Shown piece by piece: positions 28,849-39,512 of a DNA stretch of 64,000 nucleotides. The DNA lies in assembly GCA_030447505.1 (NCBI GenBank), contig JAUJOT010000006.1, positions 1 through 64,000 of the forward strand, given 5' to 3'. The position numbers and the translations under genes are program-made. The notes under the pieces are model-generated. The model worked only from the letters and a program-made list of their open reading frames with translations, did no database searches and was not told the origin of the DNA. Every line of letters starts with the position of its first letter. The first letter of the stretch is position 1. This DNA comes from Solirubrobacteraceae bacterium (lineage in GTDB: Bacteria; Actinomycetota; Thermoleophilia; Solirubrobacterales; Solirubrobacteraceae).

Positions 28849-29946
28849 TCAGTTCCGCACCGGTCGCTTCATCGTGCGATAGACGAACTCGTCGGTCTGT
28901 GCCGACTCGCGTGCCGAGATGACGCGGTCGTGGTGGCGTGAGAACCGGCAGACCGGATCGGTGGCCGCCGCGTCGCCCGTTAGCCGCAGCGCCTGGCAGC
29001 GGCAGCCGCCCCAATCGACCTCCTGTCGTCCGAGCGGGCACGTGCGGCATGGCTCCTGCATCCAGTCCGTGCCGCGGAAGCGGACGAACGCGTCCGAGCT
29101 GCTCCAGATCCACTCCAGCGGATGCTCGCGGACGTTGGCGAACTCGAGCCCCGGGATCGTCGCCGCCGCGTGGCAGGGCAACACGTCGCCGTTCGGAGCG
29201 ACCACCATCGCCGTGCGACCCCAACCGCCCATGCACGGCTTTGGCAGGTCCTCATAGAAGTCGGGGAGCACCCAGAGAACGTCCACCTTGGGGCCGACCC
29301 GCTCACGAAAGCGCTGGACCGCTTCCTCCGCGCGCCGAAGCTGCTTCGGCGATGGCAGCAGCGCCTCCTGGTTTGCGACCGCCCAGCCGTAGTACTGCGT
29401 GTTCGCAAGCTCGAGCCGCTGCGCCCCGAGCTCGAGTGCGAGATCGAGCACCTCCGCGATCCGATCGAGGTTCTGCCGGTGCAGGACGCAGTTGATCGTC
29501 AGCGCGAAGTCGAGCTGCTTCGCGAGCCGCGCGGCCGCGATCTTCTTCTCGAACGACCGGTTTCCCGCGATGCGATCGTTCTCATCGGCGTTCGGACTCT
29601 GGATCGAAATCTGCACGTGATCGAGCCCCGCTGACTTCAGCGCCTCCGCACGCTCGCGCGTGAACAGCGTGCCGGCGGTGATCAGCGAGGAGTACAGACC
29701 GGCGTCGCGCGAGGCCGCGCACAGCTCCACCAGGTCGCCGCGCAGCATCGGCTCGCCCCCCGTGAGCGCGAGCTGAAGGACGCCGAGTCGGCGCGCCTCG
29801 CGAAAGGTGCGGATCCAGTGCTCGGTCTCGAGTTCCCGGCGGTACTTCTCGCCGCCGATGTCGAGCGGATTCGAGCAGTACGGGCAGTGGAGCGGGCACT
29901 GGTAGGAGAGCTCGGCGATCAGCGTCGACGGCCTATGCTGCCGCAT
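28849..29946 (-). CDS. pqqE: PqqA peptide cyclase (radical SAM/SPASM)
   Basis: 365 residues. It forms the Glu-Tyr carbon-carbon crosslink in PqqA using SAM and iron-sulfur clusters. The radical SAM motif is YQCPLHCPYCSNPL (CxxxCxxC, about residues 15-27). TGGEPMLRGD binds SAM. The C-terminal SPASM cysteines are visible in LPCHAAATIPGLEFANV, MQEPCRTCPLGRQEVDWGG and CRCQALRLTGD. ATG 29946 (MRQHRP) overlaps the end of pqqD by 14 bases. Last gene of the pqqABCDE operon. Confidence 0.96.
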   Translation of the reverse strand: MRQHRPSTLIAELSYQCPLHCPYCSNPLDIGGEKYRRELETEHWIRTFREARRLGVLQLALTGGEPMLRGDLVELCAASRDAGLYSSLITAGTLFTRERAEALKSAGLDHVQISIQSPNADENDRIAGNRSFEKKIAAARLAKQLDFALTINCVLHRQNLDRIAEVLDLALELGAQRLELANTQYYGWAVANQEALLPSPKQLRRAEEAVQRFRERVGPKVDVLWVLPDFYEDLPKPCMGGWGRTAMVVAPNGDVLPCHAAATIPGLEFANVREHPLEWIWSSSDAFVRFRGTDWMQEPCRTCPLGRQEVDWGGCRCQALRLTGDAAATDPVCRFSRHHDRVISARESAQTDEFVYRTMKRPVRN

Positions 29947-30196
29947 CGACCACCAGTCCTCTCGCCGCCATGGCGTCGACCACGCGTCGCACGTCGTCGC
30001 GGAGATCGGCGCGGGCATACCGCACGGACAGGGCACCGACGATCTCGTCGAGCGAGCGCTCTCCGTCGCACAGCTCGAGCACCTCCGCCGCGGTGCGATT
30101 GAGCCGCACGGCACCCTCCGGGACCAGCAGCAGGTGCTCCTCGCGCACCTCGTCGTACCGCAGTCGCGCTCCCGTGGCGAGGCAGGGGCGGGTCAC
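29933..30196 (-). CDS. pqqD: PQQ biosynthesis peptide chaperone
   Basis: 87 residues, the usual size. It binds PqqA and presents it to PqqE (RiPP recognition element, winged helix). Visible: LATGARLRYDEVREEHLLLV then PEGAVRLNRTAAEVLELCDG, and LDEIVGALSVRYA. The GTG start at 30196 overlaps the pqqC stop (GTGA). No fusion to pqqC or pqqE, unlike in some organisms. Confidence 0.95.
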   Translation of the reverse strand: MTRPCLATGARLRYDEVREEHLLLVPEGAVRLNRTAAEVLELCDGERSLDEIVGALSVRYARADLRDDVRRVVDAMAARGLVVDAAA

Positions 30197-30930
30197 GCGC
30201 GGGTCACCGGCGGCTGCGTGTCGCCGCGCTCGATGGCATCGAGCTGCGCCCACAGCATCTCGGTCTTGAAGCGCAGCGCCGCGACGGCAGACTGTTGCTG
30301 CTCGCGCGTCCCGCAGCGCTCGATGGTGAGATCGAGCGCGTACTGCGCGTCAGCTGGCGCCTTCACGAGCCGTGTACGGAAGTACTCGAGCCCCGAGGAC
30401 TCGATCCAGTCGTAGTGACGCTCGAGCGCCTCGAGCCGCACGCGCATCGCGGCCGGGGCGAAGAGCTCTGTGAGCGATGACGCGACCGCCTCGAGCCACG
30501 GCTTGTGGCGCGCGAAGGTCACGTAGGCGTCGACCGCGTAGCGCACCGTGGGGAGGACGCGCTGTTCGGAGACGAGGTCTCCGCGCGGCACGCCGAGCGC
30601 CTCGCCGAGCCGCAGCCACGATTCGATGGCGCCCGTTGCGTCGCTCGTGCCGTCGTGGTCGATGATGCGCTGTATCCATACGCGCCGGACCTCCACCTCG
30701 GGGCAGTTGGCGAGGATCGCCGCGTCCTTCAGCGGGATGCACCTCTGGTAGTAGAAGCGGTTCACGGCCCAGCGTTGGAGCTCCGCGCGCGTGAGCTCTC
30801 CCGCGTCCATGCGTCTGTGGAAGGGGTGCAGGTCGTGGTAGCGCGTCGCCTGCGCGCGCAGGCGAGCGGTGAACTCCTCGGGCGGCCACGGGCCGCGATC
30901 ACCCGCCGGTCTCGTGGCAGTCTCGCTCAC
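30193..30930 (-). CDS. pqqC: Pyrroloquinoline-quinone synthase
   Basis: 245 residues, heme-oxygenase-like all-helical fold. It carries out the final ring closure and eight-electron oxidation to PQQ. Family marks: YHDLHPFHRRMDAGELTRAE, VNRFYYQRCIPLKDAAILAN, and RIIDHDGTSDATGAIESWLR, with the active-site His and Arg/Tyr residues. The GTG start overlaps the pqqB stop (GTGA), and its own stop overlaps the pqqD start, so B-C-D are translationally coupled. Confidence 0.96.
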   Translation of the reverse strand: MSETATRPAGDRGPWPPEEFTARLRAQATRYHDLHPFHRRMDAGELTRAELQRWAVNRFYYQRCIPLKDAAILANCPEVEVRRVWIQRIIDHDGTSDATGAIESWLRLGEALGVPRGDLVSEQRVLPTVRYAVDAYVTFARHKPWLEAVASSLTELFAPAAMRVRLEALERHYDWIESSGLEYFRTRLVKAPADAQYALDLTIERCGTREQQQSAVAALRFKTEMLWAQLDAIERGDTQPPVTRA

Positions 30931-31823
30931 AGCTCGATCTCGAGACCGTCGTAGGCAACCTCGACGCCCGCGTGGAGGACCGCCTCGCGCTCGTCGGAGT
31001 CCTCGAGCAGGATCGGGTTCGTGTTGTTGATGTGGACGAGCACCTTGCGCGGTCGCTCCAGCCGCGCGAGCGCCTCGAGCGTCCCGCCGGGCCCCGAGAG
31101 TGGCACGTGTCCCATGTCGCCCGCGCTGCGGACGGAGATGCCGAGTCGAGGAAGCTCGTCGTCGCGCCAGAACGTCCCGTCGACGAGCACGAGATCGCTC
31201 GTCTGCAACCGGGTGAGCACGCCATCGTCCAAGCGGGCGAGACCAGGAGCGTAGGTGACGACGCCGCCGCCCGAGCGATCGCGGAAGACGAACCCACTCG
31301 CCCCGAGCTCTACGCCTGACCCGCTCAGGTAACGCGGCGCGTCGCCGCCCACGTCGAACGGCTCGACTGTGAGGCTCGACCCTTCCAGCGGTCTCGACCG
31401 CTCCCGTTCCAGCCTCTGCCACTCGACCCCGCAATAGCGCTCGAGCATCGCCAACACCGGATACCCGTCCCTCAGCGCGCGCTCGACGCCTTCATCTCCG
31501 AAGACGCGCACCGGCGCTGCCGACTCACGCAGGAGGAGAAGCCCCGCCGTGTGATCGATCTCCGCGTCGGTCAGGAGCACCCCCGCGATCGGCGCCGCGC
31601 GAACGCCGTCGACCTGCCGGGCTGTGAGCGCCTCCAGCTGCTGGCGCGCGTCCGGTGAGGCGTTCACGAGGAACCACGGCCCCTCGCGACCCCGGATCGC
31701 CAGCGACGACTGCGTACGCGGTCGCGCCCGTACACCCTCGCGCGCCGCCTCGCACGTCTCGCAGTGGCAGTTCCACTGCGGAAAGCCTCCGCCGGCGGCC
31801 GAGCCGAGAACACGAACGCGCAC
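30927..31823 (-). CDS. pqqB: PQQ biosynthesis protein PqqB (metallo-beta-lactamase fold)
   Basis: 298 residues. It is thought to hydroxylate the tyrosine part of the processed PqqA dipeptide. The start region VRVLGSAAGGGFPQWNCHCE contains the zinc-binding CxCxxC pattern (NCHCETC) that marks PqqB. LLTDAEIDHTAGLLLLRE has the hydrolase-fold Asp-His metal site, and VHINNTNPILLEDSDE is the conserved C-terminal motif. GTG start at 31823; no good ribosome site, and a 63-base gap separates it from pqqA. Confidence 0.95.
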   Translation of the reverse strand: MRVRVLGSAAGGGFPQWNCHCETCEAAREGVRARPRTQSSLAIRGREGPWFLVNASPDARQQLEALTARQVDGVRAAPIAGVLLTDAEIDHTAGLLLLRESAAPVRVFGDEGVERALRDGYPVLAMLERYCGVEWQRLERERSRPLEGSSLTVEPFDVGGDAPRYLSGSGVELGASGFVFRDRSGGGVVTYAPGLARLDDGVLTRLQTSDLVLVDGTFWRDDELPRLGISVRSAGDMGHVPLSGPGGTLEALARLERPRKVLVHINNTNPILLEDSDEREAVLHAGVEVAYDGLEIEL

Positions 31824-31886
31824 GTGGCAGAGGGAAGCAAGACCAGCCCCGGGCGAGCACCCGAGGCGACGCGTGCTTGAGAGCCG

Positions 31887-31961
31887 TTACCGCCGGTACA
31901 GGTAGGAGGTGACCTCGGAGCAGAGATCGACGAACTCGAATTCGGGCTTGATCCACGTCAC
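31887..31961 (-). CDS. pqqA: PQQ precursor peptide
   Basis: A 24-residue peptide. It begins MTWIKPEFEF and continues VDLCSEVTSYLYRR. The invariant Glu and Tyr, three residues apart (E-V-T-S-Y, residues 16 and 20), are the atoms that become PQQ. The GTG start has a perfect AGGAGG 6 bases upstream, the best ribosome site in the operon, fitting a highly made substrate peptide. It is the first gene of pqqABCDE. The leader lies in a 73-base divergent gap with the M17 peptidase. Confidence 0.95.
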   Translation of the reverse strand: MTWIKPEFEFVDLCSEVTSYLYRR

Positions 31962-32034
31962 GCGAGGCCTCCTACTAGGGTGCACGAAACTTGGACACTA
32001 CCCACCGCAGGAGCCGAACGATCACAGTCAGACG

Positions 32035-33432
32035 ATGGACATCGAAGTAACCGCGGCGGAGCCGTCTGCGGTCGGCGCCGATCTCATCGCTGCCGGCGTG
32101 GGGGCGCGGGCCGCGCAGCTTGGTGCCCCGCAGCGCGCGATCGCGGATGCAGATCCCGTCGCCATCGTCTATACGGCTGCCGCCCCGCTCGCTGTCGTCG
32201 CACTCGAGCCGGACGTCGAGGGACTGCGGACGGGCGCTGCGCGGGCGGTGCGCGCGTGCCGCGGCGGCGGCACGGTGGCGTGGGCGCTCGAGGCGTCCCT
32301 GCCCCTCCCCGTCGAGGAGCAGGTGCGCGCGCTGGCCGAGGGCGCCGTCCTCGGCAGCTACGACGCTCGCCGCTGGCGAAGCGGCGAGCAGCCGCGCGGC
32401 GTCCAGCGCTTCGTGATCTGCGGCTGCGGCGACGACGTCACGCCCGTGGCCAACCGCGCAGCGCTCGTCGCGCGTTGGACGAACGCGGCCCGCGAGCTCG
32501 TCGACGCCCCGCCGAACGTCGTCTCACCGGCCGGGCTCACGGAGCGCGCGGCGGCGTTTCCGCGGCTGCGGGCCGAGACGATCGACCCCGCCGCGGCGGG
32601 GCTTGGCGCACTCGCCGCCGTGGGCGCGAGCAGCCCGGCCCAACCGCTTCTCCTCGTGCTCCGGCACGAGCCGCCCGGCGCGCCGGCCGCACCCCGGCTG
32701 GCGCTCGTCGGGAAGGCCGTCACCTTCGATTCGGGCGGCTACTTCCTCAAGCCGCAGACGGACATCATCCGCCAGAAGGCCGACATGGCGGGCGGCGCGG
32801 CCGTCGTGGCGGCGCTCGGCGCGATCGCCGAACTCGAGCTCCCGCTGTCGGTCACCGGTGTCGTGCCTGCCTGCGAGAACATGCTGAGCGGCACCGCGAT
32901 GCGGCCGACCGACGTCGTCAGGACCGCTGCCGGCCTCACCGTCGAGGTCACGAATCCCGACGCCGAGGGGCGGTTGATCCTGGCGGATGCACTCTGGTAC
33001 GCGCGCCGCGACGGCGCGACGCACCTCGTCGACCTGGCGACACTGACGGGCGCGTTGCGCGCGGGCATGGGAGACGTCTACGGCGGCGTCTTTTCGACCG
33101 ACGAGCTGTGGCGTGACGCCGTCGTCGAAGCGGGCAACGCAAGCGGCGATCTCGCCTGGCCGTGGCCGCTTCACCCGCGCTATCGACCGCTGCTCGACTC
33201 GACCGTGGCGGATTTGCGCAACACAGCGGGAAAGAGCTTCGGATTTCCGATCGTCGCTGCGACGTTCTTACAGCAGTTCGCGGGCGAGGGGCCGTGGGCG
33301 CATGTCGACATGCTCGGGCCCGCTTTGCTCGACGAGGATCGCGGCGACGCGTTCGGCCGCGGCGCGACCGGCTACGGCGTCCGCATGCTCATCGAGCTCG
33401 CCGCGCGCCTGAGCGCCGAGGCGCGGGCGTGA
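32035..33432 (+). CDS. M17 leucyl aminopeptidase-like protein next to pqqA
   Basis: 465 residues. C-terminal M17 peptidase domain with both metal motifs: VGKAVTFDSGGYFLKPQTD (about residue 224) and EVTNPDAEGRLILADALWYA (canonical NTDAEGR has become NPDAEGR). QKADMAGGAAVV supplies another ligand Asp and Lys-like positions. The N-terminal 150 residues are the usual weakly conserved macro-like domain. Such enzymes remove N-terminal residues from peptides. It is divergent from pqqA and flanked by the PQQ dehydrogenase cluster. A role in releasing the crosslinked Glu-Tyr from PqqA is plausible but inferred. Start ATG 32035; a weak ribosome site. Confidence 0.85.
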   Translation: MDIEVTAAEPSAVGADLIAAGVGARAAQLGAPQRAIADADPVAIVYTAAAPLAVVALEPDVEGLRTGAARAVRACRGGGTVAWALEASLPLPVEEQVRALAEGAVLGSYDARRWRSGEQPRGVQRFVICGCGDDVTPVANRAALVARWTNAARELVDAPPNVVSPAGLTERAAAFPRLRAETIDPAAAGLGALAAVGASSPAQPLLLVLRHEPPGAPAAPRLALVGKAVTFDSGGYFLKPQTDIIRQKADMAGGAAVVAALGAIAELELPLSVTGVVPACENMLSGTAMRPTDVVRTAAGLTVEVTNPDAEGRLILADALWYARRDGATHLVDLATLTGALRAGMGDVYGGVFSTDELWRDAVVEAGNASGDLAWPWPLHPRYRPLLDSTVADLRNTAGKSFGFPIVAATFLQQFAGEGPWAHVDMLGPALLDEDRGDAFGRGATGYGVRMLIELAARLSAEARA

Positions 33433-34085: not shown

Positions 34086-35870
34086 CTATTGCGCCAGTGC
34101 GAAGGCGAAGAGAGCGGCTCCGTGTGGCGCCCCGGCCATCTCGGGTGCGAACCCTTCGACCCAACTGCCCCACCCGACCGGCACGGCTATGTACTGGGTT
34201 CCGTCGATGCTGTATGTCGAGGGGCTGCTGTGGTGGCCGCTTCCGCACTGGAACTGCCACAACAGCTCCCCGGTCTCAGCGTGGAACGCGTTGAACTCGC
34301 CCGTAGGCTCGCCGACGAACACGAGGTCGCCTCCGGTGGCGAGCACCGACGCGACCATCGGTGTCTCGTTGCGCCACCGCCACACCTCTTCGCCGGTGGA
34401 CGGATCGAACGCCTTGATGAACCCCTGCATGTTCTTGTCGACGGCCGGGTCCGCTCCGAAGTACGGAAGGCTCTCCTTGAACTCCACGCGCCTCAGCGTG
34501 AGGTTCGCACCGACATCGATCACCGGGACGTAGAAGAGCCCCGTCTTCGGGCTGTAGGCCGTGTGCGTCCATTCCGTGGCCCCGGCCGGCGCCGGCCACA
34601 CGTGGACCGGCTCCCCCTCCCTCTCGGCCCAGATCTTGGGCGTCACCTTACCGTCGGCGGCGATCTCGCCCCAGGTGATGCGTTCGCCGAAGGGCGCCAC
34701 CCGGACCAGCTCACCGTTCGTACGGTCCAGGACGAAGAAGTACCCGTTCTTGTTGAAGTGACCCAGCAGCTTGCGCCCGTCCAACTCGAACAGGATGGGC
34801 GTCATGTTGCTGTCGTAGTCCCACACGTCGTGCGGCGTGTACTGGTAGTGCCAGCGGATCTCGCCGTTGTCAGGGTCCACGGCGATCACGCAGTCGGTGT
34901 AGAGGTTGTCTCCCTCTCGAACGCTTCCGTCGAAGTCGGGCGAGGGGTTGCCGGTCCCCCAGTACATGAGGTTCAGCTCCGGGTCATAGGTGCCGGTGAC
35001 CCAGCAGTTTCCACCCCCCCGCGCCCAGGCGTCACCATCAGCAGGCCACGTCTCGGACCCGGGCTCCCCCGGCTTCGGCACCGTATAGGTCCGCCAGACG
35101 CGCTCTCCGGTGTCGAGATCGAAGGCATCGAGGTGGCCGCGCACCCCGAACTCCCCGCCGGAGCTCCCCACGATCACCAGGTTCTTGACGACCAGGGGAG
35201 CGACCGTCGCGCTCTCGCCGGCCCGCACGTCGCCGTACACCTGGTCCCAGAGACAGTTGCCGGTTTCGGCGTCGATCGCGATCACATGGGCGTTGAGGCT
35301 GACGACGAAGACCTTGCCCTTCGCCACGGCGACGCCGCGGTTGACGTTGCCGCAGCAGATCGGCGTATCGAACGGGATCTCATGCCTGTAGCGCCACAGT
35401 TCCTGCCCGGTCCGGGCGTCGATGGCCCAGACCCAGCCATCCCAGCCCGAGACGTACATGACACCGTCGACGACGATCGGGGCCGCCTCGAAGGCGTACG
35501 TCGACTCCCCCGCCTGCAGGCCGATCGGGCTGAACTGAAACACCCACGCCGGACGGAGGCGCTCGACGTTCTCCGTGTTGATCTGCTCCAGCGTGCTGTA
35601 GCGCTGGCCGTCGTAGGCGCCGTAGTAGGTCAGCCAGTTGTGCGGTTCCGAGCGGGCTTCGAGAATGCGCTCGTAGGTGACATCCCGGACCACCGGTGGC
35701 GCGCTACCGACCGCGGCACTCAGAGATCCGAGGTTGACAGCCCGCTCTGCGGGCACGTAGTGCTTCTGTTGGCCGTGATTCTCGCGTGACTTCCTGACGG
35801 CCGCAATGACCCCGGCCGCGCACATCGAGCCGATTCCCAGCGCGGAGAGCTGCTTTCCCTTGAGCGGCAT
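34086..35870 (-). CDS. PQQ-dependent alcohol-type dehydrogenase with lanthanide signature
   Basis: 594 residues, eight-bladed quinoprotein propeller. N-terminal KQLSALGIGSMCAAGVIAAV is an uncleaved or signal-anchor helix, so the enzyme faces the exterior. PQQ-site marks: the vicinal disulfide PICCGNVNRG, metal-ligand Glu in SGGEFGVRGHLDAF, metal-ligand Asn in GGGNCWVTGTYDPEL, and catalytic Asp in PHDVWDYDSNM. The Asp two residues after the catalytic Asp (DYD) is the known mark of lanthanide-dependent XoxF-type enzymes; calcium enzymes have Ala or similar. Tryptophan-docking repeats such as AIDARTGQELWRY are present. AAGGAG lies 6 bases before the ATG. Confidence 0.92.
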   Translation of the reverse strand: MPLKGKQLSALGIGSMCAAGVIAAVRKSRENHGQQKHYVPAERAVNLGSLSAAVGSAPPVVRDVTYERILEARSEPHNWLTYYGAYDGQRYSTLEQINTENVERLRPAWVFQFSPIGLQAGESTYAFEAAPIVVDGVMYVSGWDGWVWAIDARTGQELWRYRHEIPFDTPICCGNVNRGVAVAKGKVFVVSLNAHVIAIDAETGNCLWDQVYGDVRAGESATVAPLVVKNLVIVGSSGGEFGVRGHLDAFDLDTGERVWRTYTVPKPGEPGSETWPADGDAWARGGGNCWVTGTYDPELNLMYWGTGNPSPDFDGSVREGDNLYTDCVIAVDPDNGEIRWHYQYTPHDVWDYDSNMTPILFELDGRKLLGHFNKNGYFFVLDRTNGELVRVAPFGERITWGEIAADGKVTPKIWAEREGEPVHVWPAPAGATEWTHTAYSPKTGLFYVPVIDVGANLTLRRVEFKESLPYFGADPAVDKNMQGFIKAFDPSTGEEVWRWRNETPMVASVLATGGDLVFVGEPTGEFNAFHAETGELLWQFQCGSGHHSSPSTYSIDGTQYIAVPVGWGSWVEGFAPEMAGAPHGAALFAFALAQ

Positions 35871-35882
35871 CGACTGCTCCTT

Positions 35883-36395
35883 CTACGGTCGGGGCTGGGG
35901 CGGGCGATCCAGGCGAGCCTCGCGCGGAACGTCCCCCAGCACAAGGATCCCCCCGATCAGGCCTCGGCCCTCGTTGTTGGCTATAGCGGAGCTGAACCAG
36001 TAGTAGCCCGGGCCGTCGAGGTTGAGGCTGGCCCTTCCTCGGGAGAGCATCGGCAACCAGATCCATTGCTTGTCGCCGTTGCTCGGCAAGATCGCGCAGT
36101 GAGGGTCCCACGGGTCATCGTTGACGAGCTCGAGGTCGAGGTCGCCCCCATGGGGCATGACGATGACCGACGGTTTCCAGATGAATTCGGCGGGCGGGAT
36201 CCGCAGTTCCGCGCGCAGGCGGCCGTCAGGTCCCTTCTTGGCGTGCGCGAGGCCGCCGTGGATGAACAGTCGGCCCAGCATCGCCTTGTTCTGCCTGTCC
36301 AACCCGGGCAGCGCATTGACGAGCGCGACGACTCGTGGGTTGAGTTGCTTGAGGACGCTCGGCCGAAGCAGGCGTAGGTAGTTCCAGAGGACCAC
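35883..36395 (-). CDS. PQQ-associated cupredoxin-like protein
   Basis: 170 residues. The C-terminal 100 residues look like a cupredoxin beta-barrel: SVIVMPHGGDLDLELVNDDP, DPHCAILPSNGDKQWIWLPM, GPGYYWFSSAIANNEGRGL. The normal blue-copper Cys-x-His-x-Met pattern is absent (YYWFSSAI where YxFxC is expected), so copper binding is doubtful. It directly precedes the dehydrogenase (12-base gap, same strand). This matches, from memory, the PQQ-associated family named after Mycobacterium smegmatis MSMEG_3727. No signal peptide is seen, so location is unclear. GTG start. Confidence 0.75.
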   Translation of the reverse strand: MVLWNYLRLLRPSVLKQLNPRVVALVNALPGLDRQNKAMLGRLFIHGGLAHAKKGPDGRLRAELRIPPAEFIWKPSVIVMPHGGDLDLELVNDDPWDPHCAILPSNGDKQWIWLPMLSRGRASLNLDGPGYYWFSSAIANNEGRGLIGGILVLGDVPREARLDRPPQPRP

Positions 36396-36838: not shown

Positions 36839-37495
36839 TCATCCCTTGATGAATCTGCTGATGGCGGCGGTGACTTCCGGCGCCTGCAGGGGGCGCTCGA
36901 ACGCGCGTGGTGCGGGGCGCTGGTCGCGAAGGAGTCGGATCGCGGCGGCGTGGCGTCCCTCGACTTGGACGATCTGGCCGGCGGTTGCGAGAATGTCGCG
37001 GGATTTGATGCGGGGTGCGGCGCCGTTGTAGGCGGCCACTCCGGTGTCCTCGAGGGTCTGCGCCAGCCGCAGGACCTGCGTCTCGCTTCTCCCCGGAAAC
37101 GAGAAGCGGGGCTTGTCGCGGGCCTTGGTTCCGAGCTTGCTCAGCGTGGCCGTGAGCGTTTCGGCGTGGTCTTGCTCATGGCGGCCGAAGGAGCGCGCGA
37201 GCTCCTTGGCTTCGGCGCTGAGCGGTAGTCGGGCGGCGCGGCGGTAGAACTCCGCTTCGAGCTGCTCCAGCGTCAGCGCGAAGCTGACGATCTCGGCGTC
37301 GCTGCCGCCGGTTTGGGCGAGCGCGCGATCGACGAACGGGGTCACGGCGCCGACGCCGGCGACGGCACCGGCGGCGAGCGCGCCGCGGAGGATGAACGCA
37401 CCGCGGGTCATGCCGCCGACATCGACGGCGGCCAGCTCGGGCGCGGCAAGATTGGCGTGGGTCACGGGGCGCTCCGTTTCTCTGAGGGATGTCAT
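36839..37495 (-). CDS. Exported ferritin-like-domain protein
   Basis: 218 residues. The N-terminus has RGAFILRGALAAGAVAGVGAV, a signal-like hydrophobic stretch after an Arg (Tat-like but only one Arg). The rest is a four-helix ferritin-like bundle: SDAEIVSFALTLEQLEAEFYRR, GRHEQDHAETLTATLSKLGT, LRLAQTLEDTGVAAYNGAAP, VQVEGRHAAAIRLL. Glu and His pairs (E..EFY, HEQDH, EGRH) could bind two metal ions. It starts within the stop of the preceding ferritin-like gene (ATGA), so the two are translationally coupled paralogs. Function unknown. Confidence 0.85.
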   Translation of the reverse strand: MTSLRETERPVTHANLAAPELAAVDVGGMTRGAFILRGALAAGAVAGVGAVTPFVDRALAQTGGSDAEIVSFALTLEQLEAEFYRRAARLPLSAEAKELARSFGRHEQDHAETLTATLSKLGTKARDKPRFSFPGRSETQVLRLAQTLEDTGVAAYNGAAPRIKSRDILATAGQIVQVEGRHAAAIRLLRDQRPAPRAFERPLQAPEVTAAISRFIKG

Positions 37496-38229
37496 GTGAC
37501 GATGAACGGCTGGACCTGGGCGAGAACCTCGTTCATCGTCATGGGAAGCGCGAAGCTGCCGTCGGGCGTCGCGGATTTCCCGGTCAACGCGTTGAGCGCC
37601 GCGGCGTGCCGGGCCTCGACGGCGTGGATGCTGAGCGCCGCGGCGAGGATCTCCCGGCTTTTGATGTTCGCTGCCTGTCCGAGGTAGGCGGCCGCGCCGA
37701 TGTTCTCCACGCGCGCGGCGAGCCGTAGGACGCTGTCCGGGCTGTCGAGTGGGAACTTCGTGCGCGGCTCGGGCGGCGGCTGCCGCCCGAGCTTGCGCAG
37801 TGTCGACGTGAGCGCCTGCACGTGTTCGGCCTCGTGCTCGCCGAAGCGCTTGAGCATGTCCAGCTCACGCCCACGAAACAGGTCGCTGTCGATCACCTTG
37901 CGATAGAAGTCGGTCTCAAGCTGCTCGAGCGCCAGCGCGTAGGCGACGATCTCCGCATCGGTCGAGCTCTCCTGCGCCTGGCCCGGGCCTCCCGGCGCGG
38001 TTCCTTCCGACTCTGTGATCTTCGAGCCGTCTGCCCCCTGTTGCGGCTCGGGTTCGTCGCCGCCACCACCGCAGGCGGCCAGCAGGAGGCTCAAGGCGGC
38101 GGCGCCGCCGCCGCCGCCGCCGCCGCCGACCATGCGCACAAACCGCTTGCGGGAGGTGTGATCGTGGGCCAGCTCCTCCAGCGCGCCGCCCTCGTGACGC
38201 GTCGCCGGAACGTTGATCGACGTCTGCAT
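37492..38229 (-). CDS. Ferritin-like lipoprotein
   Basis: 245 residues. SRKRFVRMV, then a poly-Gly run and AAALSLLLAACGGGGDEPE, give a lipoprotein signal with lipobox LAAC, so it is anchored on the outer face of the membrane. After a Gln/Gly/Glu linker comes a ferritin-like bundle (TDAEIVAYALALEQLETDFY, GEHEAEHVQALTSTLRKLGR, ENIGAAAYLGQAA, HAVEARHAAALNAL) parallel to its downstream neighbour. The ATG at 38229 is chosen for its CGGAGG 6 bases upstream; an ATG at 38271 overlapping the upstream stop (ATGA) is the alternative. Middle gene of a three-gene operon. Confidence 0.85.
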   Translation of the reverse strand: MQTSINVPATRHEGGALEELAHDHTSRKRFVRMVGGGGGGGGAAALSLLLAACGGGGDEPEPQQGADGSKITESEGTAPGGPGQAQESSTDAEIVAYALALEQLETDFYRKVIDSDLFRGRELDMLKRFGEHEAEHVQALTSTLRKLGRQPPPEPRTKFPLDSPDSVLRLAARVENIGAAAYLGQAANIKSREILAAALSIHAVEARHAAALNALTGKSATPDGSFALPMTMNEVLAQVQPFIVT

Positions 38230-38267
38230 GTGATCCTCCGCAGGTGCTGATAGGCGGTGCGACGAGC

Positions 38268-39512
38268 TCATGGCTGGTTCTCCGGGAGAGGCGCCTGCGG
38301 CACGCGCGGTGGCCTGGCGGGGAACGCCAGCGCGGGGCAGTTGATGATGATCCCCGCCGACCGCAGCGGCGTGCCGCCCGGTGACGTGACCCTTCCGCGC
38401 GCCGCCAGGCGTCTGATGACGTTGGCGTCGGTCTTGGCGTTGTTCAGGCCGCGTGCGAGCGCTGCGGGCGTGAACTCGACGAGCTGCAGATCCCACAGCG
38501 GGCTGTAGAGCCGCCGATCACGGGCACTGTCGTTGGTCGGGAAGACGTCGAAGACGTTGTGGGCATCCCCGCCTCGCCGGAGCGCGTCGAGGACCGGTCC
38601 GTTCTTCAGATTCGCGTCACGCTCGTTGAGTCCGTCGCGGATGACGTGCGCCTCACCCTGCGACGGCGGACTGGAGCGTGTGCCGACACGTCCGTTGATG
38701 GTCGCAAAGATCGCTGCCCGCGCCGAGTTCTGAAGCCGGCCGCCGTTCGGCGTGGGTGAGAGCGCGAGCGCGGGGACGAAGGTGACGCGTTCGATCGTCG
38801 CAGTCAGCGCATCGGAGGCCTCGAAGCTCAAGTACAGGATCGGCTCGCCGTTGGCGAAGCCCTCGACGAAGAGCACGTCGGCAGTCATGCGCTCCGGGTC
38901 GATGGCCAGCACGCGGTCATGCGTGTTGGTGTGGCGGGTGACGTCGAACGGCGCGTCGCCGGTCGCGATGATCGGGGCGTTGAAGACGACGCCGCTGCCC
39001 TGGACCATCACGAACGGGCTATAAGCGCCGTAAGCCTCGGCTCCCGGGCGAAACGTCGTGGGCGGAAATCCCCGCACGCCGGCCTTCAGTGCGCGTGTGG
39101 GCGCGAAGTTCGGCGCGCCCTGAAACTCCACCGGCGCTCGGCCAAGCAGCTTGTTGCTCGTCTTGACGACCTGCGCGCAGTTGGGGCAGCCGCGTGTGAT
39201 GTTCCGCAAGCGAGGGGCGAAGTTGAGCCGCAACCGTTTGGCGATGCTCTCATCTGATACGTCGGTGATCACAAACCACACCGTTTCGCCGTTCAGCGTG
39301 CCGCGATGCAACGGAAGGCGAGCGAAGTTGCGAGTCAAATCGACGCTCTGGGCACTGCGCAGAGTCAACTTGTCCTTATCGAGCTTCTTGCCGTCGGGAG
39401 CTCGAGCCGGACTGTCCCCGCCGCTCTGGGCGACAGCGAGCAGTGAATTGGCGGACAACGCGCCCAAGACCAGCATCGCTATCACCAGCAGCATTCGTGC
39501 TTGTTTTCTCAT
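38268..39512 (-). CDS. Secreted protein with one CxxC, function unknown
   Basis: 414 residues. Clear signal peptide (ARMLLVIAMLVLGALSANSL, cleaved near AVAQS). The mature protein has a single CxxC in ITRGCPNCAQVVKTS (about residue 110) and one later Cys (IIINCPALAFP). Other recognisable strings: FVMVQGSGVVFNAPIIATGD, TNTHDRVLAIDPE, NDSARDRRLYSPLWDLQLVE. No known domain is recognised. A good GGAGG lies 8 bases before the ATG. It is first gene of the operon with the two ferritin-like proteins, suggesting a metal- or oxidant-related envelope function. Confidence 0.75.
   Translation of the reverse strand: MRKQARMLLVIAMLVLGALSANSLLAVAQSGGDSPARAPDGKKLDKDKLTLRSAQSVDLTRNFARLPLHRGTLNGETVWFVITDVSDESIAKRLRLNFAPRLRNITRGCPNCAQVVKTSNKLLGRAPVEFQGAPNFAPTRALKAGVRGFPPTTFRPGAEAYGAYSPFVMVQGSGVVFNAPIIATGDAPFDVTRHTNTHDRVLAIDPERMTADVLFVEGFANGEPILYLSFEASDALTATIERVTFVPALALSPTPNGGRLQNSARAAIFATINGRVGTRSSPPSQGEAHVIRDGLNERDANLKNGPVLDALRRGGDAHNVFDVFPTNDSARDRRLYSPLWDLQLVEFTPAALARGLNNAKTDANVIRRLAARGRVTSPGGTPLRSAGIIINCPALAFPARPPRVPQAPLPENQP

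Follow-up and report, generated by a model that had tools for sequence, protein, structure and literature searches.

One of the questions in pyrroloquinoline quinone (PQQ) biosynthesis regards the peptidase that releases the PQQ precursor from PqqA, which is unsettled in many bacteria. One paper considers six proteins from four peptidase groups and could not settle which of them acts in the organism it studied (PMC10531626). The excision has so far been ascribed to other protease families, and the PQQ peptidases named in the literature covered here do not include an M17 enzyme. In the window, a stretch of 64,000 nucleotides from a Solirubrobacteraceae bacterium, an M17 aminopeptidase gene stands beside pqqA and raises the question whether such an enzyme may help in the excision. 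The features that matter here are the following.

28849..30114, minus strand: pqqE, radical SAM/SPASM protein (TIGR02109, 489 bits, cut-off 381)
29933..30253, minus strand: pqqD (Pfam PqqD, E=5e-15, above the Pfam cut-off)
30193..30930, minus strand: pqqC (TIGR02111, 307 bits, cut-off 240)
30927..31823, minus strand: pqqB (TIGR02108, 361 bits, cut-off 245)
31887..31961, minus strand: pqqA, a 24-codon ORF for the 24-residue precursor VTWIKPEFEFVDLCSEVTSYLYRR
31962..32034, no strand: intergenic, 73 bases separating the start codons of the divergent pqqA and M17 genes
32035..33432, plus strand: M17 leucyl-aminopeptidase-like gene, 465 aa (Pfam PF00883)
34086..35870, minus strand: PQQ-dependent alcohol dehydrogenase, methanol/ethanol family (TIGR03075, 621.5 bits, cut-off 480)
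35883..36395, minus strand: MSMEG_3727 family PQQ-associated protein (TIGR04339, 216.6 bits, cut-off 75)

The pqqABCDE operon is complete on the minus strand (28849-31961) with pqqA at its head, and lies on contig C13; the genome measures 3.84 Mb and is split over 13 contigs. We place the true start of pqqE near 29946, within its ORF, and that of pqqD is probably further in than annotated. An AGGAGG precedes the pqqA start in the sequence, and the core of VTWIKPEFEFVDLCSEVTSYLYRR, Glu-Val-Thr-Ser-Tyr, fits the expected Glu-x-x-x-Tyr; most pqq loci examined have a pqqA homologue ahead of pqqB. The original prediction placed the M17 gene divergent from pqqA, 73 bases away and inside the PQQ region, and this arrangement is borne out. 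The gap is 73-88 bases in the closest relatives and ~120 in G340. On the far side of the M17 gene from pqqA stand the MSMEG_3727 gene and the PQQ dehydrogenase, the likely user of PQQ. The mean third-position GC between 26525 and 54000, bounds that were picked by eye, is 0.855 vs 0.928 in the other window genes. Based on this lower value and on the absence of pqqC from four genomes of the same genus, the region may have been acquired.

Analysis of the protein sequence identifies it as an M17 peptidase. Peptidase_M17 is the sole Pfam domain that matches it (311.6 bits, cut-off 25, E=7.9e-93, residues 150-453 over the full profile 1-310), with no M16 peptidase domain, and the ATG start at 32035 is backed by the alignment of relatives. 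The metal and catalytic residues K227, D232, K239, D250, D309, E311 and R313 are invariant in all 56 aligned sequences. An AlphaFold2 model (pLDDT 94.9) superimposes on bovine lens leucine aminopeptidase (LAP; 2ewb) with Z 49.1 and rmsd 2.3 over 435 aligned residues, and its top Foldseek match is BotP, with bovine and other M17 structures equal by Z. The model has the fold of the solved M17 structures throughout. None of the NCBIfam leucyl aminopeptidase equivalog cut-offs is reached (the best score is 355.8 bits vs 432 for NF002073), and residues 307-313 read NPDAEGR instead of the canonical NTDAEGR signature. This has no bearing on M17 membership, because another genus, in which pqqC was not detected, has the same change in its M17. 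The genome also encodes a second, housekeeping M17 on contig C3 that carries NTDAEGR. A plasmid collection searched with the pqq-side protein gave only distant matches, none of which reached 80% query coverage.

The pqq-side M17 falls within a single clade of at least 11 sequences (SH-aLRT 99). This clade is placed inside the f7-type M17 lineage and not among the M17 enzymes of the window's own order, and the housekeeping M17 of the window's genome lies elsewhere in the tree. The tree is a quick one without bootstraps in which two members, L073 and L040, are long-branched and of unsure exact place. One further sequence, L143 (CAMCDF010000085.1), is labelled Bifidobacterium breve while its M17 groups with Thermoleophilia sequences, and it is probably a mislabelled bin or contamination.

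The co-occurrence with pqqA, which the original prediction had left to be checked, is seen in this clade, which is found almost only in pqq genomes and mostly directly beside pqqA. The neighbourhood with pqqA-E is conserved: seven of the 11 members stand directly beside pqqA or pqqB, in at least two families and at 57-83% identity. PQQ-positive genomes were picked out by a search for pqqC across samples of the order, the class and the phylum, and in four of the 27 examined (the window's own, G170, G187 and G340) the M17 gene was directly beside pqqA. L107, L126, L109, G188 and G177 came from a profile search and from the matches listed in a scan of named genomes, and the clade may have further members in other groups. 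In L109 the M17 gene is beside pqqB with no pqqA seen between them. In G188 and G177 it is cut by a contig end; the G188 copy adjoins the MSMEG_3727 and PQQ dehydrogenase genes and pqqE is elsewhere in that genome, and neither pqqC nor pqqE was detected in G177. Two outer members of the clade, in G404 and G367, occur in genomes with pqq genes and are not side by side with pqqA. The genomes surveyed are samples, mostly metagenome-assembled, and several contigs end at the M17 gene.

At least 10 of the 11 source genomes of the clade have pqq genes, vs ~4% of the 399 class genomes. Within this class sample, seven of eight clade carriers and 8 of 391 others are PQQ-positive (Fisher p=1.7e-10, a value that treats related genomes as independent and overstates the association). 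A stronger point than this test is that at least two families, down to ~57% identity, retain the pqqA side of the gene, while the downstream flank varies. Of the relatives outside the clade, the closest 22 from the class sample are free of pqq genes within flanks of roughly 1.5 kb, and the named ones listed, many with 10 kb flanks, have no pqq neighbour beyond a pair of weak hits of the pqqB query (25-31%) in loci from Acidobacteriota. The identities of M17 and PqqB are correlated (r=0.96 over 36 genome pairs, which are not independent and to which shared species history contributes). The linkage may have arisen a single time, with the genes then passed on together. There are also many PQQ-positive relatives without a clade M17, namely G196, G082, G083, G116, G130, G347 and G372, as well as nine f23 and two f30 genomes. 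In G082 (L064) pqqA directly adjoins a membrane-protein gene with no M17 between them, and pqqB, pqqC and the PQQ dehydrogenase gene are each broken across several frames, the result of assembly errors or decay.

Another question is whether the enzyme itself has changed. Four active-site blocks, whose limits follow the known catalytic motifs but were set once a first list of clade-specific positions was at hand, hold 18 of 41 clade-specific substitutions vs 6.4 expected; the nominal p=5e-6 is descriptive, and the weight rests on the contrast with six control clades, which have 0 to 5 such positions in the same blocks, every one below expectation. G404 was left out of the clade in both counts. 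Two of the clade-specific residues, Gln247 and Leu427, are at the positions of Met270 and Ala451 in the S1 pocket of bovine LAP. The unvarying distance to the metal ligand Asp273 fixes the first match; the second was placed by the HxDxxG motif and by what we take to be the bovine sequence. In the bovine enzyme both Met270 and Ala451 take part in ligand binding (PMC7180978, PMC8151835). The S1-pocket changes are a better sign of specialisation than the Thr-to-Pro change, on which the original prediction had relied. That change is indeed present, as NPDAEGR, but is not diagnostic: a search for the motif as a DNA pattern across the 399 genomes found it also in the M17 of G027, G158 and G175, which belong to one genus and gave no pqqC match, so that it cannot serve as a sufficient marker. 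In these three (L198, L197 and L196, respectively) the Thr-to-Pro change arose independently.

What could such an enzyme do in the pathway? M17 enzymes take residues off the N-terminus one at a time and normally do not cut before proline. PqqA holds a Lys-Pro bond and ends in LYRR. Because of this bond and this C-terminal tail an M17 enzyme cannot work alone on PqqA, and therefore the simplest reading is an endoprotease cut followed by M17 trimming. We lean towards this reading, in which a PQQ-dedicated M17 aminopeptidase would trim the leader from crosslinked PqqA once an endoprotease has made its cut. As we picture it, the Glu and Tyr of PqqA would be crosslinked by PqqE and PqqD, and an endoprotease, perhaps one of two core M16 enzymes, would then open the crosslinked peptide. 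The M17 protein, in this view a cytosolic di-metal aminopeptidase dedicated to PQQ biosynthesis, would strip N-terminal residues singly up to the crosslinked Glu, whose amino group would thereby be exposed for the later PqqB and PqqC steps, and a separate activity would have to take off the short LYRR tail. The substrate, the order of the steps and the endoprotease partner are what we infer. Leader removal in two stages is found in other RiPPs and parallels the proposed scheme (PMC10885120).

A stronger form of this proposal is that in Thermoleophilia the M17 enzyme is dedicated to, and essential for, the release of the crosslinked Glu-Tyr from PqqA and takes the place of the M16 (PqqF/G) route, which would make it the second RiPP-specialised M17 after BotP; this we consider unlikely. 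To call it the PqqA-processing peptidase, a role for which the original prediction had it as a candidate, is probably too strong because an aminopeptidase alone cannot remove the C-terminal tail of PqqA; a PQQ-pathway trimming peptidase would be the fitting description. The same prediction saw no M16 gene, which holds within the window but not for the genome, where there are two, at C7:109850 and C13:234622. Neither is linked to pqq. Two M16 genes are present in 30 of the 32 genomes of the family that were tested, most of which have no pqqC match. Both M16 genes of the window's genome have counterparts in relatives without PQQ, and we reject them as PQQ-specific partners; a core M16 may act on PqqA. 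As for TldD as the alternative, a search detected none in the window's genome, nor in G170, G177, G187, G188, G340 and G367, and as it is also missing from two same-genus genomes without PQQ, this absence is not informative.

The main rival to the trimming role is peptide salvage, where another protease frees the Glu-Tyr and the M17 enzyme degrades the leader and tail fragments, so that it is linked to pqq and dispensable for PQQ. M17 enzymes are general peptide-degrading aminopeptidases, one PqqA is consumed per PQQ so that fragments would accumulate, and many PQQ-positive genomes manage without a clade M17. However, a housekeeping M17 is already present in the genome, and the changed S1 pocket of the clade is unexpected for generic salvage; we regard this role as possible, if rather unlikely. 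A second rival is an ordinary M17 that is merely carried in a horizontally moving island of PQQ and alcohol-oxidation genes and has no role in PQQ. The lower third-position GC of the pqq region, the four same-genus genomes without pqqC and the position of the clade outside the M17 enzymes of the window's order would all fit, but only the pqqA side is kept in the linked genomes, the divergence is focused on the active site, and M17 and PqqB co-diverge, which makes a passenger gene distinctly improbable.

The divergent arrangement across 73 bases also brings up regulation, as PepA of E. coli is a DNA-binding M17 protein and the pqq-side M17 might in the same manner bind DNA and control the divergent pqqA promoter. 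Against this, no catalytic residue has been lost and it is the substrate site where the changes concentrate, the N-terminal part lacks a basic character (13 K/R vs 17 D/E), and outside the region of the pqqA start there is little conservation in the DNA between the two genes. A sigma-70 promoter scan of 31850-32150 gave no match. We find a regulatory role highly improbable.

By comparing the pqq-side M17 with known systems we find its closest precedent in BotP of the bottromycin pathway (PDB 5lhj, 5lhk), a likeness that comes from the structure match. BotP is an M17 enzyme that matures a RiPP by taking the N-terminal residue off the precursor (PMC10885120). The two proteins share the M17 fold and chemistry at 36-37% identity, and both are encoded in RiPP gene clusters, but BotP acts on bottromycin, in a different cluster, and removes the first Met only. 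With the housekeeping PepA and bovine LAP the pqq-side M17 shares the fold, the metal ligands and the catalytic Lys and Arg, and it differs from them in the S1-pocket changes, in the Thr-to-Pro change beside the metal ligands and in the linkage to pqq. The likeness to PqqF/PqqG lies in the proposed place in the pathway, the cutting of crosslinked PqqA (PMC10906245), whereas these are M16 zinc endoproteases unrelated to M17. TldD, PqqH and PqqM are likewise peptidases linked to PQQ in other bacteria, but of other families (TldD/PmbA and DAP2-type; PMC10531626). The M17 enzyme adds to them a specific candidate, marked out by its genomic partnership with pqq and by defined residues of its pocket, from soil actinobacteria that are for the most part uncultured. 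If the proposal is true, the part that M17 enzymes play in natural products made from peptides would reach beyond bottromycin.

Some observations regard the surroundings of the locus. Two Ferritin_2-domain genes and a DUF7482 gene (36839-39512) adjoin the PQQ dehydrogenase in the window. The dehydrogenase itself (34086-35870) reads Asp-Tyr-Asp (HDVWDYDSN) at the site where a second Asp is carried by the lanthanide-dependent members of its family, and it may be lanthanide-dependent. No Fae was detected in the genome of the window. The M17 gene of three relatives shares its contig with genes of tetrahydromethanopterin-type formaldehyde oxidation (L205, G177:C260; L061, G187:C62; and L107), which are Fae, FTR, FhcA or MCH, with Fae, FTR and MCH on the G177 contig; this suggests that the pqq operon is part of a methylotrophy island in these relatives.
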